From NCBI GenBank assembly GCA_900545625.1, contig UQZS01000018.1:1-31988 (forward strand): a stretch of 31,988 nucleotides of DNA, in the 5' to 3' direction. The notes under the pieces were generated by a model. It did not search any database. It worked only from the letters and a program-made list of their open reading frames with translations, and was not told where the DNA came from. Position 1 is the first letter of the stretch. Each line of letters starts with the position of its first letter. Positions 20,124 to 31,469 of this stretch are shown piece by piece. The DNA comes from an uncultured Oscillospiraceae bacterium (GTDB lineage: Bacteria > Bacillota > Clostridia > Oscillospirales > Acutalibacteraceae). Made by a program: the position numbers and the translations under genes.

Positions 20124-21740
20124 TCACCAGGCGAGGTCGTCTTCAAAGTCCAGCAGCGTGGGGTCGACGGGCTCTTCCTGCAAAACGGTCTGCATGTATT
20201 GATTCACCTGGTCGCGCATATCGCGCCGCGAAATCGTACGCGGATCCATCAGATCCTGCTTGACCCAGATGAAGTGGACGTTGTGTTCTCTCGCCTGATC
20301 GTCGAAAATGCCGTTTAAGCCGTCCATGCCCTTGCAGGAGATCTGGTCATACATAATGACCGTATCGACCCGGTATTCCTCGACGATGCGCCAAAGCTCA
20401 TCCACGACGTTGCGGTAGCCGCCCTTGGTGTGCTTGCGCATAATAGAGCGCTGATAGGTTTTTGCAAGATCGCGCAGCGCCTGTTCTTTGTCGTCGGCGC
20501 TGATCTCTAAGTATGAGATCATCGTTTCCATATCCATGACGACGTTGATGCCCCAGCAGTTTTCCAGCCAGTTGGCGAAGCTCGTGTAATAGTTCGCCGG
20601 GCAGGACCACACGACGGCGCGGTGGCGCATCGCTTTGGAGACGGGCGTTTTCTTTTCATACGCCTGCATCATGATCTTGTTGACTTTTTTGTCCACCTTC
20701 AAAAAGCGCTTGTTGGAGCCGCCCGACAGGTTGAAATAGTAAATGCGGTACAGCCAGAAGCACGCGCCGGTCATCTGCGGGTAATCGGTCTTGTTCACGT
20801 CCCATTTCTGGAGCTCGTAATCAAGCTGCTCGTTGTAGTCCCGCATTTTGGAGAAAAAAGCGTCCCAATCGAATTTTTCACCGGTCTGCTGCTCGATATA
20901 CGAGATCAGGGACTTGATCTCATCCACGCCGTATTCCTGCACATCCTCGTCGTTGTAGCGCAGCGGCACGCCGAAAACGTGCGACGGCAGCTGCAGGCGG
21001 CGGTCAAGGAAGGACGTGTTCATAATGGAGCCGTCGCAGGGCATGTTGGTGGAGATCATGCAGCAGCCGATCTTCGGATAGTCATCCTCAATGGCGACGC
21101 CCGCTTCTGCGCTCGGCAGCGGGCAGACATCCGCCGGCACGCCGTAGCTTTCGGTGACCTCGAGATACGGCGGCGTGATCTGCTGATCCACCATGGACGC
21201 CAAGAAGATCGGCAGCGTTTGCAGCGGGATGGGGATCAGGTTCGGGAAGCCCGTAAAGACCTCGTTCGGGACGATCTCATCCATCAGCACGATCCTTTTG
21301 GACAGCTTGTTGCCCGGGTGGAACCGTTCATCCGCGCGCATCGAAATGCCGATGAGCTTCGTGGTGTGCTTGATGATCATGTTATAGTGGAGATGCGCCA
21401 TCCGCAGCTGCGGCCCGCGAAGCCCCATCACGTGGCGATCCACAAAGGCGGGCGCAGAAAGATAGGAGGCGAACCAGCGGTACCGCATCAAGCCCTTCAC
21501 GCACGACACGGGGGCTTTGCCGACCATGACGATCATGTCTTTCCAGTTGACAAGCCAGCGGTAGTAGTCATATATGGTGTCGCCCGCGCCGCGCCATTCT
21601 CTGTGCTTCAACAGGGCGGTATGCTCGCGGTACAGGTCGCCCAAGCCCTCCGGTTTCCCGAACATATCAACGGCATACGCCTTGATCTTTTCGGGCTCGA
21701 TCTTGATAGCTTTCAGCTTTTTCAGCTTATCCTTGAACAT
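20124..21740 (-). CDS. 2-hydroxyacyl-CoA dehydratase family, large subunit
   Basis: 538 residues, HgdA/HgdB-like (COG1775, benzoyl-CoA reductase/2-hydroxyacyl-CoA dehydratase family) but longer than the usual 400-480. Candidate cluster cysteines: Cys206 (PADVCPLPS), Cys226-Cys227 and Cys235 (TNMPCDG), and Cys469 (YDQISCKGMDG), the last matching the C-terminal cluster ligand region. It lies inside a soluble cytoplasmic complex that takes one electron from the activase. ATG at 21740, GGGAGG nine bases upstream and within the beta gene, overlapping it by 14 bases. Whether it is a classic dehydratase, a reductase, or a double-cubane-cluster protein relative cannot be read here. Confidence 0.9.
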   Translation of the reverse strand: MFKDKLKKLKAIKIEPEKIKAYAVDMFGKPEGLGDLYREHTALLKHREWRGAGDTIYDYYRWLVNWKDMIVMVGKAPVSCVKGLMRYRWFASYLSAPAFVDRHVMGLRGPQLRMAHLHYNMIIKHTTKLIGISMRADERFHPGNKLSKRIVLMDEIVPNEVFTGFPNLIPIPLQTLPIFLASMVDQQITPPYLEVTESYGVPADVCPLPSAEAGVAIEDDYPKIGCCMISTNMPCDGSIMNTSFLDRRLQLPSHVFGVPLRYNDEDVQEYGVDEIKSLISYIEQQTGEKFDWDAFFSKMRDYNEQLDYELQKWDVNKTDYPQMTGACFWLYRIYYFNLSGGSNKRFLKVDKKVNKIMMQAYEKKTPVSKAMRHRAVVWSCPANYYTSFANWLENCWGINVVMDMETMISYLEISADDKEQALRDLAKTYQRSIMRKHTKGGYRNVVDELWRIVEEYRVDTVIMYDQISCKGMDGLNGIFDDQAREHNVHFIWVKQDLMDPRTISRRDMRDQVNQYMQTVLQEEPVDPTLLDFEDDLAW

Positions 21741-22938
21741 GGCGCTTCGCCTCCCTTTCCCTTGCGATCTTTTTGATCTCCAGGCTCTCCACAAACGCCT
21801 GCACGCGCGTGCGAAGCTGCCCGGAGGAGGAAGCCGTATACTGCCGGTCCACGGACGCGGACGGCACGCCGTATTCCTCGTTCATGATGTGCGACGCGAG
21901 CGCGCGCTCATAGCCCCAGTATTCGCAGAATTTGATCTGCTCGTACAGTACGCCGTCGGCGTGGTATTCCTTTACGAGCCGTCTTACGGTGTCGCGGCGT
22001 TCCTGCACCTTTTCGTGGCTCATGTAGCGCGGGCATTGGCTCGTGACCATATAGTGCTTGCAGATCTGCGTCAAAATATCCTCGTTCGGGTCGATGTGGA
22101 TCTCCTCCCTGCCGGGGATAGAACCGAAGCAGTAGCGGTCCGCCACGACCAGCGCGCCGCTTTCTTCGATCAGCTTCGTGAAATCGGGATCGTCCATTTC
22201 CGAACCGACCACCACGATCTTCGCGCGGTAATTCTTCTTTTCGTCCGGCTTTCGGGTCTTTAATTCCTCGGCGGTCTCGCGCAGCCTGTCAAGGATGAGC
22301 GACTTCGGACAGCAGTATGTAACCAAATTCAAAACGTGGTATTCATAGCCTGTGATACGCGGGTTTTCCTCCTTGCGGTAGCTGCCGATCTCCGTCATCA
22401 GGCGGCATACCTCGTTGTGTTCGGCAATGGCTTTCAAAAGTGCCTCGTCCGAAAAGTCCACGTTGTATTTTTCTGAAAGCGGACGGATGATCTTATCCCT
22501 CGCCTGCTTGACATAGTGCCGGACGGTGTGGGGCTCGATCTTAAAGGGGACATCCATGAAGCTCACAAAAAAGTTCGGGTTTTCCACAAGATGCAGCAGC
22601 TCAAAATGCTCCAAGGCGCGGTTCATCTCGGAGCAGGTCTCCGAGCCCAAAAGCGCGTCCAGAAAATTATAGCCGCCCTCGATGGCGCGTTCCAAAAGCG
22701 CCTTGGAATACCCGCAGAGGAAGTTGCTCATGTAATAGGTCGCGATGTCCAAAGAGCCCGTCCGCGGGGCACGAAGCCGCACGGAAAAACAGCCCGGGCA
22801 GTTGAGCAGCACCTCCGGGATGTGGTAACAGGTGTAGCCGAGTGCGAGCTTTCCCTGCGCCTTTGCCTCCCGGACAAGCTCGTTATTCGCTTCCTGCAGC
22901 AGATTTTCAAACTCGTAAAGATATTTCAGATCTTTCAT
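21727..22938 (-). CDS. 2-hydroxyacyl-CoA dehydratase family, small subunit
   Basis: 403 residues. YTCYHIPEVLL (Cys37), MSNFLCGYSKALLE (Cys75), GSETCSEMNRALEHFELL (Cys102) and the late EQIKFCEYWGYERAL (Cys338) are the conserved places of the family; the last corresponds to the third cluster ligand of HgdB/BcrB-type subunits. DRQYTASSSGQLRTRVQAF near the end is the typical family tail. The ATG at 22938 has AAAGGAG five bases before it. It is the first of the two catalytic subunits after cooC in the operon and would form a heterodimer with the 538-residue subunit. Extra cysteines (Cys47, Cys50, Cys209-210, Cys270) are notable. Confidence 0.93.
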   Translation of the reverse strand: MKDLKYLYEFENLLQEANNELVREAKAQGKLALGYTCYHIPEVLLNCPGCFSVRLRAPRTGSLDIATYYMSNFLCGYSKALLERAIEGGYNFLDALLGSETCSEMNRALEHFELLHLVENPNFFVSFMDVPFKIEPHTVRHYVKQARDKIIRPLSEKYNVDFSDEALLKAIAEHNEVCRLMTEIGSYRKEENPRITGYEYHVLNLVTYCCPKSLILDRLRETAEELKTRKPDEKKNYRAKIVVVGSEMDDPDFTKLIEESGALVVADRYCFGSIPGREEIHIDPNEDILTQICKHYMVTSQCPRYMSHEKVQERRDTVRRLVKEYHADGVLYEQIKFCEYWGYERALASHIMNEEYGVPSASVDRQYTASSSGQLRTRVQAFVESLEIKKIAREREAKRHVQG

Positions 22939-22961
22939 AGGAACTCCTTTGAATAAGCAGC

Positions 22962-23726
22962 TTAAATGATCTCCATCTTCCGAAGTGCTTCGGCGACGCC
23001 CTTCACAATGTTGGAATCGTCCGGAAGCTGCGTGATATTTTTGCCCTCGATATCATACACGGCAAGGTTGGGGTCCGAAAGGATATAAGAAAGCACCGGG
23101 ATGTCGCCGGTATCGATGTACGAGATCACGTCCTCGCTCGGCAGGCGGTTTATAATCGCCCCGATCTTTTCATACATGACCAGCTCGTCGGCAACGCTCT
23201 TGATCGTCCCGATCACATGCGTGCCCTTTTTGCTCGCATCGCTGACCAAAAGCAGGTGGGTCACTTTTTCCATGACGCGGCGGTTGATCTGCTCGATGCC
23301 CGCCTCGCCGTCGATCACCACATAATCAAATTCCTCGGAAAGCAGGCTGATAACTTCCTTTAAGTACGAGTTGATCTTGCAGTAGCAGCCTGCGCTTTCG
23401 GGCCGGCCAACGGCGATAAAGGCAAAACCGTCGGTTTCGACCAGCGCGTCAAAGATCTTATACCGCGCGTCGCCGAGCAGCTCGATGGCAGCTTTCGTAT
23501 TGCCGTCCTCGACGGTGGAAACGATCTCCTTGCGGATGTCGTCGATCGTCGTCTGCACATCGATGCCCAGCGCCGTGGAAAGGCCGACGGCCGGGTCGGC
23601 GTCGATCGCCAGGATCTTTTTGTCGGGATAGTTTTCCGTAAGCAGCTTTACGATGGTTGCGGATACAGACGTTTTGCCCACGCCGCCTTTGCCCGCGACA
23701 GCGATGATTTTTGCATGGTCGTTCAT
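22962..23726 (-). CDS. CooC-type nucleotide-binding maturation ATPase
   Basis: 254 residues from the ATG at 23726 (an upstream TTG is possible; GAGG precedes both). Deviant Walker A GKGGVGKTS (residues 13-20), IDADPAVG (41-48), VVIDGEAGIE as the Walker B/switch II region, and the CooC hallmark GRPESAGCYCKIN with a CxC pair at Cys114 and Cys116. In CooC1 of Carboxydothermus that pair binds metal in the dimer, and the ATPase matures the nickel site of CO dehydrogenase. Here it heads an operon of dehydratase genes with no CO dehydrogenase in the window, so the client may be the dehydratase-like complex or the last gene. Promoter at 23766-23794. Confidence 0.9.
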   Translation of the reverse strand: MNDHAKIIAVAGKGGVGKTSVSATIVKLLTENYPDKKILAIDADPAVGLSTALGIDVQTTIDDIRKEIVSTVEDGNTKAAIELLGDARYKIFDALVETDGFAFIAVGRPESAGCYCKINSYLKEVISLLSEEFDYVVIDGEAGIEQINRRVMEKVTHLLLVSDASKKGTHVIGTIKSVADELVMYEKIGAIINRLPSEDVISYIDTGDIPVLSYILSDPNLAVYDIEGKNITQLPDDSNIVKGVAEALRKMEII

Positions 23727-23765
23727 CAAGTCCTCATCCTCTTGTTAAAAAAATAACTAAGAAAC

Positions 23766-23899: not shown

Positions 23900-26569
23900 T
23901 TATTTTTTCTGTTTTTTCCGCTTGATCGCGGCACGCTCGATCGCCTTGACGATCTCTACAAGCGGCACGATGGCAAACGCGAGTGCCACAGCGATGACGT
24001 ATTCGAGCAGGCTGATGTGCTCGAACTCAAACGCCTCGCTCAAGAACGGGATATAGATGACCGCAGTGGTCGTCACGAAAGAGGCGAGCGTCGAGAGCGC
24101 CAGATATTTGTTGTGGCTGCCGTGCACACCCATGGAGAAGATCGAACCGCGCTGCGAGCGCATGTTCAAAGAGTGGAAGATCTCGCACAGCGACATCGTC
24201 AGGAACGCCATGGTCATGCCGTCGGGGCTGTCTACAATTTCCCATTTCCCCGCTTCAATGAAATGTCCGACGAAGTATGCCGCAAGGGTCAGCAGCGTAA
24301 CCAAAAGGCCCTGATAGGCGATGTCGCCGCCCACGCCGCCTGCGAAAATGCCGTCGGTGGTCTTGCGCGGCGGGCGCTTCATGATGTCGCGCTCGCCCTT
24401 TTCCATGCTCAGCGCCAGCGCCGGGAAGGAGTCGGTCACGAGGTTGATCCACAGCAGGTGCACGGGTCGCAGAATCGTGAAGCCCAAGAGGTTCGCGAAG
24501 AAGATCGCCAGCACCTCGCTTAGGTTGGACGCGAGCAGGAACTGGATGGATTTGCGGATGTTGTCGTAAATGCGGCGGCCTTCGCCGACGGCGGAGACGA
24601 TCGTCGCAAAGTTATCATCGGCAAGCACCATGTCCGCGACGTTTTTCGTCACGTCCGTGCCGGTGATGCCCATGCCCACGCCGATGTCCGCGCTCTTGAT
24701 AGACGGCGCGTCGTTCACGCCGTCGCCCGTCATGGCGGTCACCATGCCGCGTGCGCGCCAGGCGTTGACGATACGCACCTTGTGCTCGGGCTGCACGCGC
24801 GCGTACACGGAATACTGCGTGACCTTTTCCTTGAATTCCTCGTCGGAAATATCGTTGAGCTCCGCGCCCGTGATGGCCTCGGACGCATCCTCGATGATCC
24901 CGAGCTCCTTCGCGATGGCGACGGCGGTGTCCTTATGGTCGCCGGTGATCATGATCGGGCGGATGCCCGCGCTGCGGCATTCCTCGATCGCCGCCTTGAC
25001 CTCCGGGCGCACGGGGTCGATCATGCCCGTAAGCCCCACAAAGGTCAGGTCGTGCTCGATCGCCTCGGGGCTTTGATCCTCGGGCACGGCCGAATGCGTC
25101 CGGAACGCCCCGGCAAGCACGCGCAGCGCACGGTCGGCAAACGCCTTGTTGGCGGCGAGCACCGCTTCGCGGTCTGCTTCAGTCATGGGGACGGATTCGC
25201 CGTTCTTAAAGATGTGCGTGCAATGCCCCAGCACCACGTCGGGCGCGCCTTTGGTAAACTGCAATACACCGTCGGCGGTCTTGTGGATGGTAGACATCAT
25301 TTTGCGCGAAGAATCGAACGGCGCTTCGCCCACGCGCGGGGCGGCGGCAAGCAGGTCGTTCTTATTCATGCCCAGCGTCATGGCGTACGCCACGAGCGCC
25401 GCCTCGGTCGGTTCGCCCACAAGGTTGCCTTCGTGGTCGACGTTGACGTCGGTACAAAGCGCCATGCACTGCGCCAGCAGCTTTTCGTCATCGCCGTAGT
25501 GCTCGACCACGGTCATTTTGTTCTGCGTGAGCGTGCCCGTCTTATCCGAGCAGATGATCTGCGCACAGCCGAGCGTTTCGACGGCGGTCAGTTTGCGGAT
25601 GATGGCGTTCTTCTTCGACATGTTCGTCACGCCGATGGAAAGCACCACCGTCACCACCGCCGCAAGCCCCTCAGGGATGGCGGCGACCGCCAGCGACACG
25701 GCGATCATAAAGGAATTCAGTAGGAAGTCGAAGTCCGGCACCCCGCCCGTCACATAGCGGCGGACGATGTCGAACACGAACATGAACACGCAGATGCCGA
25801 GAACGATGTAGCTCAGGATCTTGGAGAGCTGGGCAAGCTTCAGCTGTAAGGGCGTGCGGGATTCCTGCGCCGCTGACAACGCGCCCGCGATCTTGCCCAT
25901 TTCGGTGTCCATGCCGGTGGCGGTTACGACCGCGCGCCCGCGCCCGTACACGACCGAAGAACCCATGTACATCATGTTTTTGCGGTCGCCCAGCGGCACG
26001 TCCTTCCGGTCGCCGAGCCCAAGGGCGCCTATCACCTTATTGACCGGCACGGACTCGCCCGTCAGCGCCGCCTCCTCGATCTTGAGGCTCGCACATTCAA
26101 AAATACGCGCGTCCGCGGGAACGGCGTCGCCCGCTTCAAGCAGGATCACATCGCCCACGACCAGCTCCGCGCTCGGGATCTGCTTGACCTCGCCGTTGCG
26201 CAGGACCTTGGAGGTCGCCGCCGCCATTTGCTGCAGCGCCTCGATCGCCTTTTCGGCCTTGCTCTCCTGATAGACGCCTAACACCGCGTTGATGATGACC
26301 ACCGCGAGGATGATGATGACGTCTGTGGGGAACTCGCTTTCCATTGCCGCCGTGATCCCGGAGACCACCGCCGCCGCGATGAGGATGATGATCATCGGGT
26401 CGGCAAACTGCTCTAAGAACCTGCGGGCAAGCGATTTCTTTTTCCCCTCCTGCAGCTTGTTCTCACCGTTTTCGGCAAGACGTTTTTCCGCTTCGGCACG
26501 TGAAAGGCCCTGTTGGGAGCTTTGTACCGCGTCAAAGACCTCCTGCGGGGACTGCAAATAGGATTGCAT
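23900..26569 (-). CDS. P2-type cation-transporting ATPase, probable Mn2+/Ca2+ exporter
   Basis: 889 residues, the standard length of P2A (Ca2+-type) pumps. Actuator TGES at about 173-176 (ALTGESVPVNK), the phosphorylation site CSDKTGTLTQ (Asp about 343), the hinge TGDGVNDAPSIKSADIG (about 620), and the transmembrane PEGL motif at AAIPEGLAAV, which fits Ca2+/Mn2+ pumps. Ten membrane segments; KRKKQKK end. A yybP-ykoY (manganese) riboswitch lies in its leader and the same riboswitch controls the P-type ATPase YoaB of Lactococcus lactis, so Mn2+ export is the best reading, though Ca2+ cannot be excluded. AGGAGG seven bases before the ATG. Confidence 0.93.
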   Translation of the reverse strand: MQSYLQSPQEVFDAVQSSQQGLSRAEAEKRLAENGENKLQEGKKKSLARRFLEQFADPMIIILIAAAVVSGITAAMESEFPTDVIIILAVVIINAVLGVYQESKAEKAIEALQQMAAATSKVLRNGEVKQIPSAELVVGDVILLEAGDAVPADARIFECASLKIEEAALTGESVPVNKVIGALGLGDRKDVPLGDRKNMMYMGSSVVYGRGRAVVTATGMDTEMGKIAGALSAAQESRTPLQLKLAQLSKILSYIVLGICVFMFVFDIVRRYVTGGVPDFDFLLNSFMIAVSLAVAAIPEGLAAVVTVVLSIGVTNMSKKNAIIRKLTAVETLGCAQIICSDKTGTLTQNKMTVVEHYGDDEKLLAQCMALCTDVNVDHEGNLVGEPTEAALVAYAMTLGMNKNDLLAAAPRVGEAPFDSSRKMMSTIHKTADGVLQFTKGAPDVVLGHCTHIFKNGESVPMTEADREAVLAANKAFADRALRVLAGAFRTHSAVPEDQSPEAIEHDLTFVGLTGMIDPVRPEVKAAIEECRSAGIRPIMITGDHKDTAVAIAKELGIIEDASEAITGAELNDISDEEFKEKVTQYSVYARVQPEHKVRIVNAWRARGMVTAMTGDGVNDAPSIKSADIGVGMGITGTDVTKNVADMVLADDNFATIVSAVGEGRRIYDNIRKSIQFLLASNLSEVLAIFFANLLGFTILRPVHLLWINLVTDSFPALALSMEKGERDIMKRPPRKTTDGIFAGGVGGDIAYQGLLVTLLTLAAYFVGHFIEAGKWEIVDSPDGMTMAFLTMSLCEIFHSLNMRSQRGSIFSMGVHGSHNKYLALSTLASFVTTTAVIYIPFLSEAFEFEHISLLEYVIAVALAFAIVPLVEIVKAIERAAIKRKKQKK

Positions 26570-26814: not shown

Positions 26815-27438
26815 TCAAAAGAACGCGGGCAGTTCTTTTTCCTTAAATACGTTATATTTATAGTTTGCGCGCATAAATTCCAAGATCGTTTCGGGCGCGA
26901 TGCATTTTTCGAGCCGCTTGCGCTCGAGCGGCCAAAACAGCATAAACACGGCCGCCGCCGCTGCGTCGAGCAGCAGCTCCAAGCCGATCCCCGAGGCCGC
27001 GTAGAACAAACTGCGTACTTTATACACCGCGCGGCACGCCTCCATGAATTCCGCTTCGTTCTCCACATGGCACAGGGTGATCTCCGCCGTCGCGCCGTGT
27101 GCAAAAAGCGTAAACACATGGTAATACACCGGCCGCCCGCGCGGACTGTCCCATACGCCTTCGTTTTTTACGACCAGTTCGGTTTCGGGCGTGCAGCCGG
27201 TCACACGATAGGTGCAGGTGACCGCCGCCGCGAAGTGGTTCGGATAGAGCCAGGCGCCGCCCGTGCACCGCTCCAGCACCGCCTGCGGCACCGGGGAGTG
27301 CGCCAAGAATACCAGCGTACAGTCGGTCGTTTCTCCGATATCGACCAAAACGTCCGCGCCGTGCGCGCAAGCCACCTCGGCGCCGTCGCAGAAAATGCGC
27401 GCCAGCCCCTCGGCGCGGTTGTAAAGCCGGATCTGCAT
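26815..27438 (-). CDS. Membrane protein of unknown function, last gene of the Rnf-like operon
   Basis: 207 residues. The N-terminal half is a beta-rich soluble-looking domain (IRLYNRAEGLARIFC, VLVDIGETTDCTLVF), and one hydrophobic stretch (YAASGIGLELLLDAAAAAVFMLFW, about residues 146-169) is bordered by Arg/Lys. Cysteines in CTYRVTGC and LCHVENEAEFMEAC might pair. Starts 22 bases downstream of the glycoside-hydrolase-like gene, with GGGGGGA before the ATG, so it is in the operon. I do not recognise it; being co-transcribed with the Rnf-like subunits may hint at a shared role. Confidence 0.72.
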   Translation of the reverse strand: MQIRLYNRAEGLARIFCDGAEVACAHGADVLVDIGETTDCTLVFLAHSPVPQAVLERCTGGAWLYPNHFAAAVTCTYRVTGCTPETELVVKNEGVWDSPRGRPVYYHVFTLFAHGATAEITLCHVENEAEFMEACRAVYKVRSLFYAASGIGLELLLDAAAAAVFMLFWPLERKRLEKCIAPETILEFMRANYKYNVFKEKELPAFF

Positions 27439-28658: not shown

Positions 28659-29252
28659 TCAAACGCCGAGGCCCGTGCCCGTAAGCCCCGTAAACGCGAG
28701 CGCGAGAATAGACACATAAATAAACACGGCAGGCGTGCCCTTAAAGCTTTTCGGGATCTGCTCGTTTTTGTCAAGCGCGCGCAGACCGAAGTTGATAAGC
28801 AGTACGGCGATGACAAAGGCAAAGCCCGCGCCGATCCCTGCACCGATCGCCTCAAACACGCCGAACGCCGCACGATAGTTGATGAACGGAACGGCAAGCA
28901 CCAGCGTGTTGAATGCCGCAACGCCGAGCCGCCGCACAGTGCGCGGCTTTGCGCGAAAGAAAAGCAGCACGGCAAACAGTGTGACAAGATACAGCACGAC
29001 GAGCACGCCGACGAACAGGAGCGCGTGCCAGAACACATTGCTGTTGCGCACGGCGGCGTTTTGCTCTAAAAGTACACAGATAAGCGATCCGAGCGTCGAA
29101 AAATACATAATGAAGATGGTCAGCGGGAAAAGCTGTTTGGGCTTTGCCGCCATACGGATCGCTTCATCCGCCCCGTAGCCGCCCGAAAAGATCAGGTTTT
29201 GGAACAGGCAGGCATACAGCGCCGCCGAGAAAAGGCTGCCTAAAATACTCAT
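28659..29252 (-). CDS. RnfA/NqrE-like membrane subunit lacking iron-sulfur cysteines
   Basis: 197 residues with six membrane segments, the size of RnfA. Late region KSFKGTPAVFIYVSILALAFTG aligns with RnfA's (K)PFKG...LMSLAFMGFSG end, and FNTLVLAVPFINYRAAFG with TNCAVLGVALLN. But RnfA's two conserved cysteines are absent: the first helix motif LGxCPFLG reads FSGGYGADE, and the TNC motif reads FNT (Thr116). Those Cys hold, with RnfE's, the [2Fe-2S] centre within the membrane. So the fold looks kept but not the redox site. ATGA overlap with the gene before. Confidence 0.82.
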   Translation of the reverse strand: MSILGSLFSAALYACLFQNLIFSGGYGADEAIRMAAKPKQLFPLTIFIMYFSTLGSLICVLLEQNAAVRNSNVFWHALLFVGVLVVLYLVTLFAVLLFFRAKPRTVRRLGVAAFNTLVLAVPFINYRAAFGVFEAIGAGIGAGFAFVIAVLLINFGLRALDKNEQIPKSFKGTPAVFIYVSILALAFTGLTGTGLGV

Positions 29253-30382
29253 GACGTTTCCCCGCCTTTCGGATCCTCCGCGCCGCCGGATGCGGGCGTT
29301 TGTGCGTTGTCCGCCTTATCCGCGTTGTCGGGCATCTCGTATTTTTCGCGGTATGCGTCGAGCTCCGTCAAAATCTCGTCGAATTCCGACAGATAATCCA
29401 CCGGTTCGGCACGGCGCGCCCGCTGCGGCGGCTGCTCGGCAGCACCGGCTTTCGGCGCGTCCAACGGCGCCTGCGCCGCTTTTGCCGCCTTGCCGTGCGG
29501 CGCTTTTTCGGGCTTCGCCCGCTTTTTCGTTTTCTTTTCTGCCTTTTTCGTCTTCCGCGCGGTCATTTCCGACACCGCGGCATCCGGCGCTTGTGCAGGC
29601 AGCCCCGAAACAGGCGCATCCTGCTTTTTGCGCCGTTTTTCCGTCCTGCCGCGCGGGGCGGATACGGGGGATTCCTCCTCATCATAGGGGTTGAAATCCG
29701 TATCCAGCAAATTGCGCAGCTTTCCGACGTGCGACTGCGAGATCTCGCGCATATCAAACGCCTGCTCGGGGTGTGCATCGGGATGGCGGTGCAAGATCAG
29801 CGCCTTAACGCCCGCCGCAAGGAAGCCCAGCAGCAAAAGCCCGCCGAACGGGTACAAAAAGCCCGGCAGCTGCACGGGAAGCTTTAAATCGACGGAATAG
29901 ATCGTCCCGCTGCCCAAAATCTCGCGCACTGTGCCGACCAGCAGCACCACCAGCGCATAGCCCGCACTCGCGGAGACCGCGTCCACAAACGTTTTGCCGA
30001 AGGGATTTTTCACCGCGAACCGCTCGCAGTGCAGCGCCACCAAGGAATTGACGGCGAGCAGCGGCAGGAAAATGCCTGCATTCTGCGTCTCGTTGGGCGC
30101 AAAACGCTCAAAGAGCATGAAGATCGGGATATTGATCAGCACCCCGAGCACCGCATATGCAGCAACGCGGAAATAGCTTTTGATGTGCTTTAAAGCCAGA
30201 CACGCGAGCAGCTCGATGATGACCAGCTCCGCACATGAAACGACCGCCAGAATGATCGCGGATTTCAAGGACACCGCCATAGCCGCGACAGGCGCGAGCC
30301 CGATCGCTTCAAACAGAACAGGGTTTTTTACGACGGCGCTGTCACGGATCCCTTTGAGCAGTTCTTTCCCACGGTCATGCAT
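29249..30382 (-). CDS. RnfE/NqrD-like membrane subunit with long C-terminal tail
   Basis: 377 residues: a core of about 210 (typical RnfE size) plus a tail of about 165. The core carries NPVLFEAIGLAPVAAMA (RnfE normally GLCP, here Ala30), LAVNSLVALHCERFAVKN (normally VNC, here Ser113) and VGTVREILGSGTI, a near-exact match to the RnfE end motif. Both cluster cysteines are thus replaced. The tail is cytoplasmic by hydropathy: Lys/Ala/Pro-rich in the middle (KKAEKKTKKRAKPEKAP) and acidic at the end (YLSEFDEILTELDAYREKYE), possibly a coiled-coil or partner-binding region. ATG at 30382 with GGAGG eight bases upstream, inside rnfD. Confidence 0.85.
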   Translation of the reverse strand: MHDRGKELLKGIRDSAVVKNPVLFEAIGLAPVAAMAVSLKSAIILAVVSCAELVIIELLACLALKHIKSYFRVAAYAVLGVLINIPIFMLFERFAPNETQNAGIFLPLLAVNSLVALHCERFAVKNPFGKTFVDAVSASAGYALVVLLVGTVREILGSGTIYSVDLKLPVQLPGFLYPFGGLLLLGFLAAGVKALILHRHPDAHPEQAFDMREISQSHVGKLRNLLDTDFNPYDEEESPVSAPRGRTEKRRKKQDAPVSGLPAQAPDAAVSEMTARKTKKAEKKTKKRAKPEKAPHGKAAKAAQAPLDAPKAGAAEQPPQRARRAEPVDYLSEFDEILTELDAYREKYEMPDNADKADNAQTPASGGAEDPKGGETS

Positions 30383-31469
30383 CCGCAGCACCTCCCTTAT
30401 CCGGCAGCGCCGTTTCCGTCTCGGAACGATCCTTGCGCCGCCTGTGCGCCTGCAAGCGCCGCGCAAACCCTGCGTCGGGCAGCCGGTTGAACACGCCCGA
30501 AAGCGCCTGTGTGAGCAGCACGGCGAACATCACGCCTTCCTCGAACGCGCCGAACCGGCGGAACAGCATGCAGAACACGCCGCCGCAGATCCCGTAAACG
30601 AGCCTGCCGTAAAAGGTCTTCGGCAAAAACGGCTCCTCCGACAAAAGGAACAGCGCCCCGAACACCAGCATCCCGCCGCACAGCTCCATGGCGACGGACT
30701 GTCCGCGCCCGGCTGTGGTGCGCGGGAACAGCAGCGCAAATATCGCCGCTGCCGCCAAAAATCCGACGGCGGCCGTAAACTGCTTCGGGCGGCGCAGCAG
30801 CAAATAGAGCAGCGCGCCGAACAGCGCGACCATGCAGCCCGTGCCCATCGCGCCCGCATGCGCGCCAAGCAGAATATCCAAATAATTTGCAAGCTCGCCG
30901 CCCACAGACGCGCGGTTTTGCAGCATTTGCGTCAACGATACGCCTTCCGTAAACGCGGAGCTGCCGAATACCGGTGCGCTCTCCCCCGCCGCGGGCAGCG
31001 CCGGGTAGGCGAACACATACTGCGGCAGACAGACCGTTACAAAGGCAAGCCCCGCCGCCGCAGGAGAAAACAGGAGACTGCGCGCCGTACCGAACGGCAG
31101 CTTCGCCGCAAGGATAGCAAACGAAACGGCGAGCACCACAAGCCACGCGGGCGAGGAGGCAGGCAGACAAAGCGCCACGGTCGCGCCGGTGACCACGGCT
31201 GAAAGGTCGCGCAGCGTCGGATGCTGTCCCAGAATCTTCATGCCGAGCCCCTCGCACACCGCGGCGGTCAGCACCGCGATGCACACAAGCCACAGCGCGC
31301 GCGAGCCGTAATAATACCACGCCATGACTGTCGGCGCGAACAACATGACCAGGCGGTCGAGCATCTGCTTTTGCGTCGTGCGAATCTCCGCCTTCATTTC
31401 GGAGGTAAACAGACGGCCGTCTGTCGGGTTCTGCATTTCCTGACGCAAAAAAACCACCTCGTTTTCCAT
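30375..31469 (-). CDS. RnfD/NqrB-like membrane subunit, degenerate FMN motif
   Basis: 364 residues, about ten membrane segments. The family's landmarks are seen: PTLRDLSAVVTGATVALCLP, ILLGAHAGAMGTG, GGMLVFGALFLLSEEPFLPKT, RRFGAFEEGVMFAVLLTQALS. The position of the covalent FMN motif SGAT reads EGVSLTQML (residues 175-183), so a Thr is there but the S(G/A)AT context is lost. Start is uncertain: the ATG at 31469 has no ribosome site, whereas a TTG at 31448 follows GAGGTGG by five bases. First gene of a five-gene operon, overlapping rnfE by eight bases; no room for rnfG between them. Confidence 0.85.
   Translation of the reverse strand: MENEVVFLRQEMQNPTDGRLFTSEMKAEIRTTQKQMLDRLVMLFAPTVMAWYYYGSRALWLVCIAVLTAAVCEGLGMKILGQHPTLRDLSAVVTGATVALCLPASSPAWLVVLAVSFAILAAKLPFGTARSLLFSPAAAGLAFVTVCLPQYVFAYPALPAAGESAPVFGSSAFTEGVSLTQMLQNRASVGGELANYLDILLGAHAGAMGTGCMVALFGALLYLLLRRPKQFTAAVGFLAAAAIFALLFPRTTAGRGQSVAMELCGGMLVFGALFLLSEEPFLPKTFYGRLVYGICGGVFCMLFRRFGAFEEGVMFAVLLTQALSGVFNRLPDAGFARRLQAHRRRKDRSETETALPDKGGAADA

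Follow-up and report, generated by a model that had tools for sequence, protein, structure and literature searches.

What can the membrane core of an Rnf complex be used for once its internal electron carriers have been lost? The question is raised by three overlapping genes for an RnfD-, an RnfE- and an RnfA-like protein (termed D', E' and A') at positions 28,659 to 31,469 of contig UQZS01000018.1, from an uncultured Oscillospiraceae bacterium (assembly GCA_900545625.1); the whole stretch of 31,988 nucleotides that was analysed is referred to as the window. In canonical Rnf, electrons pass from RnfB through the [2Fe-2S] centre to RnfG, the RnfD flavins, RnfC and finally nicotinamide adenine dinucleotide (NAD). 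This transmembrane route is excluded for the D'E'A' gene set, because cluster ligands, RnfG and RnfB are all missing at the locus. An initial annotation had proposed that the fold was kept for something other than the ferredoxin:NAD route, and this proposal is strongly supported by the loss of the cluster ligands and of RnfG and by ten genomes that hold such genes without a canonical A/E pair.

Cofactor sites and family assignment of the membrane core

In the C. tetanomorphum complex, RnfD carries flavin mononucleotide (FMN) on Thr153, and the metal site lies where an hourglass is narrowest, built from two cysteines in RnfA (Cys25, Cys113) and two in RnfE (Cys26, Cys109), which published structures show as the site of the cluster in the middle of the membrane (available text of PMC9588780). 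These cysteines hold a [2Fe-2S] cluster whose redox state drives alternating inward and outward access, according to the accessible part of a 2025 review (PMC12174285). The window keeps 0/4 of these residues: when its proteins were aligned with RnfA, RnfD and RnfE, no cysteine fell into any of the four columns (Table 1). The initial annotation had named Ala30 and Ser113 as the E' replacements, with which the alignments with PDB chains and relatives agree; it had also reported the LGxC and TNC cysteines of A' as missing and the FMN motif of D' as altered, and the respective columns were found to hold Asp29 and Thr116 in A' and Ser178 in D'.

Table 1. Positions in the window of the D'E'A' genes, of the gene that follows them and of selected residues and segments.
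Feature	Position	Strand	Basis
D', RnfD/NqrB-like membrane protein, 364 aa	30375..31469	-	PF03116, E 1.9e-58
E', RnfE/NqrD-like core with long charged C-terminal tail, 377 aa	29249..30382	-	PF02508, E 4.2e-29
A', RnfA/NqrE-like membrane protein, 197 aa	28659..29252	-	PF02508, E 1.8e-12
DUF4015 glycosidase-like protein, single N-terminal hydrophobic segment	27461..28645	-	PF13200, E 8.7e-26
D' Ser178, column of the FMN-bearing Thr (Thr153 in C. tetanomorphum RnfD)	30936..30938	-	alignment
E' Ala30, first RnfE cluster Cys column (GLCP)	30293..30295	-	alignments with PDB chains and relatives
E' Ser113, second RnfE cluster Cys column (VNC)	30044..30046	-	alignments with PDB chains and relatives
A' Asp29, first RnfA cluster Cys column (LGxC), followed by Glu30 and Arg33	29166..29168	-	alignments with PDB chains and relatives
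A' Thr116, second RnfA cluster Cys column (TNC)	28905..28907	-	alignments with PDB chains and relatives
E' tail, low complexity, charged, typical of close relatives	29252..29770	-	mostly predicted local distance difference test (pLDDT) <50 in model
Conserved predicted helix in E' tail (YxxEFDEILSELD motif)	29342..29395	-	model helix 330-347, pLDDT about 71-75

The same columns were read in related loci, grouped by match score as close (>150 bits) or distant (67-117 bits), a threshold chosen by us on score. Cysteines were read in the fetched loci only, a subset of the 100 carrier genomes described below; 72/75 divergent A rows, 72/75 divergent E rows and 22/23 canonical A rows were distinct, and a length filter had removed the E' row of locus L062 and the truncated A' row of L025. 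Canonical rows from the gathered loci keep both cluster cysteines throughout (A 23/23, E 23/23). Close A' rows keep neither (0/47), and close E' rows keep the first in 24/48 and the second in 0/48; among distant rows the counts are 0/28 and 10/28 for A' and 7/27 and 0/27 for E', so that the columns of RnfA Cys25 and RnfE Cys109 hold cysteine in 0/75 divergent rows each. Across the 74 divergent loci with both an A' and an E' row, none of the four cysteines is present in 36, one in 36 and two in 2 (L129 and L138), and no locus keeps more than two. Cysteine loss characterizes the family as a whole and is no peculiarity of this locus; the divergent family lacks the full set of cluster cysteines, and the window has none. 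The residue after the lost first A' cysteine is Glu in 47/47 close rows (Pro in 22/23 canonical rows), and the Gly position at +4 holds Arg or Lys in 47/47. The FMN threonine column of D' is occupied by Ser or Ala in 20/20 close rows; Thr is kept in 5/24 distant ones.

D', E' and A' exceed the Pfam cut-offs (PF03116 and PF02508) and fall far under the NCBIfam cut-offs for Rnf and Nqr subunits: 139.7 bits for D' against rnfD (TIGR01946, cut-off 207.05), 74.8 for E' against rnfE (TIGR01948, cut-off 213.4) and 43.7 for A' against rnfA (TIGR01943, cut-off 229.3), with 59.1, 54.5 and 21.7 bits against the nqrB, nqrD and nqrE equivalogs (TIGR01937, 01939 and 01940; cut-offs 349.9, 244.85 and 247.55). 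The nearest solved chains for the three proteins are RnfD, RnfE and RnfA from C. tetanomorphum and other bacteria, the best PDB sequence match of D' being RnfD 7zc6_D (1.4e-25). The AlphaFold model of A' (mean pLDDT 77.8) gave six PDB matches with E <=0.001, all of them RnfA or NqrE, at template modelling (TM) scores of 0.60-0.73 (7zc6_A, TM 0.73; 8ahx_A, TM 0.70); as judged from this model, the RnfA-type fold is therefore retained in A'. For D' and E', sequence similarity points to retention of the RnfD- and RnfE-type folds. That the three genes overlap too tightly to leave room for rnfG or rnfB, as originally noted, is borne out by overlaps of 8 bp (D'/E') and 4 bp (E'/A'), with a gap of 13 bp from A' to the DUF4015 gene; a concealed rnfB, rnfC or rnfG between D', E' and A' is ruled out, since the overlaps leave no space. 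Reading the set as a second canonical Rnf is ruled out by the scores below cut-off together with the cofactor-site alignments.

For D', E', A' and the DUF4015 gene, comparison of the window with five relatives gave ratios of nonsynonymous to synonymous substitution rates (dN/dS) of 0.08-0.37, with dS saturated (2.74) in one E' pair. D', E' and A' of the window branch are under purifying selection, from which it follows that the proteins matter, and a pseudogene reading is ruled out by these ratios.

Distribution, the RnfC-like subunit and co-occurring Rnf

In a class-wide survey of 391 genomes, matches over about 65 bits were confined to the family of the nearest genome (f1) and to another family of the same order (f5). 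An order-wide survey of 295 genomes yielded 30 with a match at 1e-16 or better, namely 12 from f1, 17 from f5 and 1 from f90; three of the f5 matches have been read, and the 14 new ones and that from f90 are unread. Within f1 (300 genomes), at least 100 are carriers by score, comprising at least 43 close and at least 57 distant genomes, and weaker or partial matches, such as those of about 61 bits in G626 and G484, were assigned to neither group. The divergent family is present in at least two bacterial families. Canonical and divergent rows are parted by one branch in unrooted trees, both for A (98 rows, support 100/100) and for E (98 rows, support 100). An earlier description of the family was not found in the literature searched, largely without subscription journals; it is not described in the available portions of PMC4014512 or PMC10579323.

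The initial annotation had described the set as lacking C, G and B. This stands for the window locus, which is without RnfB, RnfG and RnfC, and for its branch, in which no RnfC-like gene lies beside D'E'A' in 43 close genomes among the matches listed; for C it fails in most of the distant relatives. In the distant group an RnfC-like gene (C') is usually found directly before D', a C' match occurs anywhere in 55/57 listed genomes, and C' lies within 5 kb of A' in at least 51/57, a lower bound because A' of G450 is on a 3.35 kb contig ending inside D' and C' of G466 is a fragment at a contig start. The gene row of locus L141 reads rpe, a mecA-like gene (opposite strand), C', D', E', A' and DUF4015, and that of L142 is identical without the mecA-like gene. 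The contig of L144 stops inside D', and the presence of C' cannot be judged there. C' homologues from named organisms are those of Anaeromassilibacillus senegalensis (the query's own cluster, G283), placed in Acutalibacteraceae, and Faecalispora anaeroviscerum (43% identical). A GxGGxGFP loop, which we take to be the FMN/NADH loop, is present in 2/2 canonical RnfC rows and in 0/36 C' rows. RnfC of C. tetanomorphum holds FMN in a NuoF-like part (available text of PMC9588780). Second rnfC-like matches of 195-209 bits were seen in seven close genomes, among the matches listed, on contigs other than that of A'.

In the close loci, the absence of C' goes with long E' tails (Table 1), for which the predicted E' model has low overall confidence. 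A tail motif near FDEILSEL is present in 17/18 loci from L008 to L025 (the exception being L024), and no motif of this type was found in C'-carrying loci. The divergent family seems to have been reduced stepwise and not to have begun as a bare D-E-A core, since its fuller locus carries an RnfC-like iron-sulfur protein; the window branch lost C' and all four cysteines and gained the charged E' tail. Three f5 loci (L061-L063) have D'E'A' and a DUF4015 gene with neither C' nor an E' tail, and L133 also has neither.

A scan for a second, full rnf set gave a positive result: the nearest genome (G001, A' 98% identical) carries a complete canonical rnfCDGEAB operon on a separate contig, and its rnfG lies within that operon. 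Among the matches listed, 10/57 distant genomes show just two PF02508 matches, both weak, and thus only the divergent A/E pair; these ten, G630 among them, are 87-100% complete, and two of them consist of no more than two contigs. None of the ten (0/10) yielded rnfG (4/4 controls positive, one below cut-off). A convincing rnfB was likewise not found in the ten, which gave ferredoxin-repeat and weak partial matches only; the RnfB N-terminal domain matched strongly in the four controls only, and G465 passed the cut-off solely by summed repeats. For strain BL-6, "only four" Rnf genes were found by the authors of PMC7764203, with no explanation in the accessible text.

The set can thus be placed against two known systems. 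With the Rnf complex (RnfCDGEAB, for example C. tetanomorphum 7zc6) it shares homologous D, E and A in the order D..E-A, the A' fold according to the model and, in most distant-type relatives, an RnfC-like gene upstream; it differs in having no B or G at the window locus, no [2Fe-2S] cysteines and Ser for the FMN Thr, in scores below the NCBIfam cut-offs and, in the relatives, in a C' without the presumed FMN/NADH loop. With Na+-NQR (NqrABCDEF) it shares homologues of the membrane subunits NqrB, NqrD and NqrE, whereas NqrA, NqrC and NqrF are absent from the window locus, the same cysteines are missing and the scores lie far below the nqr equivalog cut-offs. D'E'A' is an Rnf-derived family and, by the defining features, not a member of Rnf.

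Genes around the locus

Nineteen named loci, mostly metagenome-assembled genomes of uncultured Clostridia, were compared with the window (20 loci). Clustering of open reading frames (ORFs) detected 17 loci with E', 18 with the DUF4015 protein and 17 with a P-type cation ATPase; greedy ORF picking overlooked some genes, and tblastn recovers A' in all 19 relatives. Upstream, the relatives carry a divergent mecA-like gene, rpe (PF00834, 4.6e-70 in L007) and putative proA and proB, the latter two named by eye (aldehyde dehydrogenase and amino acid kinase families). The window ends inside the mecA-like gene that had been proposed for it, and the fragment (31596 to the window end) reaches 16.3 bits with PF05389, a weak match under the cut-off of 22.5; the assignment is upheld by the homologues in L008 (28.5 bits) and L062 (46.5 bits), and that in L058 gave no PF05389 match.

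The D-E-A order followed by the suspected hydrolase recurs in other genomes: a DUF4015 homologue was found in 17/19 loci from L007 to L025, in 9/29 small loci (L066-L094, in which the DNA stops about 1.5 kb past A') and in four C'-carrying loci (L139-L142). The protein belongs to the same family as the uncharacterized DUF4015/PF13200 protein of PDB 4s1a and differs from it by the N-terminal hydrophobic segment. Of 14 aligned rows, 8 have the Asp of the DYxRFP strand and 6 lack it, which makes catalysis doubtful as a shared role; an enzymatic partner was set aside on this ground and because the gene was not found in 20/29 small loci.

The ATPase gene (Ca2+-type, window 23900-26569) follows the DUF4015 gene in 17/20 compared loci, the window included, and a functional link to D'E'A' is possible. 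Between the two lies a 207-aa ORF (26815-27438) with no Pfam match, of which only 19 residues match in close relatives; it was either recently gained or lost in the relatives, and was dropped as a part of the system. Farther along (20124-23729), two 2-hydroxyglutaryl-CoA dehydratase D-component proteins beside a ParA/ArsA-like ATPase look like a 2-hydroxyacyl-CoA dehydratase-type set. In other loci, a gene for an NADPH-dependent FMN reductase or flavodoxin fold immediately follows A' (L056, 9619-10185, genome G229), and a small lipoprotein-like gene, identified by eye, lies near A' in the C'-carrying loci L057, L058, L125 and L127.

Possible function and alternatives

With about even confidence, D'E'A' is regarded as an Rnf-derived complex that has lost its electron route and serves as a putative cofactor-free transporter or ion conduit. 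We infer this from the missing ligands, the retained folds, the co-encoded genes, purifying selection and the persistence of the family without rnfG or a convincing rnfB. A more specific version is put forward tentatively, as one that could well be wrong: the core of a redox pump would have turned into an alternating-access transporter with a polar Ser/Asp-Glu-Arg site, driven by an ion or solute gradient or controlled by the E' tail, and not by electrons. The A'-E' dimer would keep the inward-open/outward-open alternation of Rnf and Nqr around this site in place of the cluster, with Ser or Asp, then Glu and Arg, standing where Cys, Pro and Gly had been, and D' would retain an ion path. The E' tail might now provide, with a soluble partner, the docking on the cytoplasmic side that C' provided before its loss, and the DUF4015 protein, where present, might act as the outer partner, topologically in place of RnfG. 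A cation such as Na+ or H+ would be a first guess for the substrate.

Several observations weigh against such a transporter or conduit. The Glu/Arg pair varies among distant A' rows (Arg in 16/28 and 17/28 at these places). Of the residues proposed for the Na+ path of RnfD, Asn90 and Glu185 are lost in 44/44 divergent D' rows, and Asn124 is lost in 20/20 close rows and kept in 21/24 distant ones, in a comparison with just 2 canonical full-length D rows; these losses speak against an unchanged Rnf-type Na+ path. Near-invariant new cysteines in close rows (A' 59, E' 119 and D' 147) could bind metal. Both CxxCxxCxxxC [4Fe-4S] motif sets are kept in 35/36 C' rows (the exception, L103, is cut), so that some electron transfer may have persisted in the C'-carrying relatives. 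The DUF4015 gene was not found in those 20 small close loci, whose DNA ends soon after A'. Finally, 43/43 close genomes, among the matches listed, hold a PF02508 gene of at least 202 bits and an RnfC over the cut-off, which leaves room for an action of D'E'A' on that complex.

It is unlikely, if the best placed of the alternatives, that the set is a shortened redox device in which electron flow linking a cytoplasmic protein to the membrane still runs through D' (flavin) and C' (two [4Fe-4S] clusters) and does not need the A/E cluster; the lineage of the window would then have lost C' or be borrowing another donor. The kept motif sets and the proximity of C' to A' in the distant genomes fit such a device, as does the transfer of electrons from RnfD riboflavin to the RnfC iron-sulfur clusters in Rnf (available text of PMC9588780); the column of RnfD Asp248 is acidic in 22/24 distant and 13/20 close D' rows, and some distant rows keep the FMN Thr. 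It is opposed by the absence of the GxGGxGFP loop from all C' rows, by the ten genomes without a canonical A/E pair, in which RnfG and a convincing RnfB are missing, by the window branch, which has no C', and by the replaced FMN Thr in every close row.

Two further explanations are improbable, and to the same degree. D'E'A' might modify canonical Rnf by swapping into the normal complex, blocking it or aiding its assembly, with use of its B, C and G; the canonical-scoring genes of the close genomes would allow this, but the ten distant genomes keep the divergent set without a canonical A/E pair, rnfG or a convincing rnfB, and D'E'A' has a conserved locus of its own near rpe and the mecA-like gene. 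Alternatively, the new cysteines of the close branch might form a relocated metal centre or a disulfide site. They are frequent in close rows (A' Cys59 46/47, E' Cys119 47/48, D' Cys147 19/20, Cys101 17/20 and Cys212 19/20) and rare in canonical ones (1/23, 0/23, 0/2, 0/2 and 1/2, respectively); however, A' and E' have just one each, and in distant rows A' 59 is found in 1/28 and E' 119 in 2/27, yet D' 147 in 17/24. Decaying or mis-assembled rnf genes, which the reduced gene set, the lost cofactor sites and single in-frame stops within a few distant matches might suggest, are refuted for the window branch by open frames and purifying selection, and are contradicted by at least 100/300 carrier genomes by score, fixed replacements and a conserved locus.

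Rnf and Nqr are regarded as redox machines, and a relative that is kept under selection without the central cluster amounts to a natural uncoupling experiment: D'E'A' offers a way to learn if the A/E hinge and the ion path of D operate without electrons, which bears on coupling in Rnf and Nqr. For genome annotation, the presence of rnfA, rnfC, rnfD and rnfE is unsafe as a sign of energy conservation in Acutalibacteraceae. Some anaerobic Clostridia have, often in addition to a normal Rnf, a conserved relative of the Rnf membrane core from which the electron-carrying parts were lost, and probably use it as a cofactor-free membrane transporter or ion conduit.

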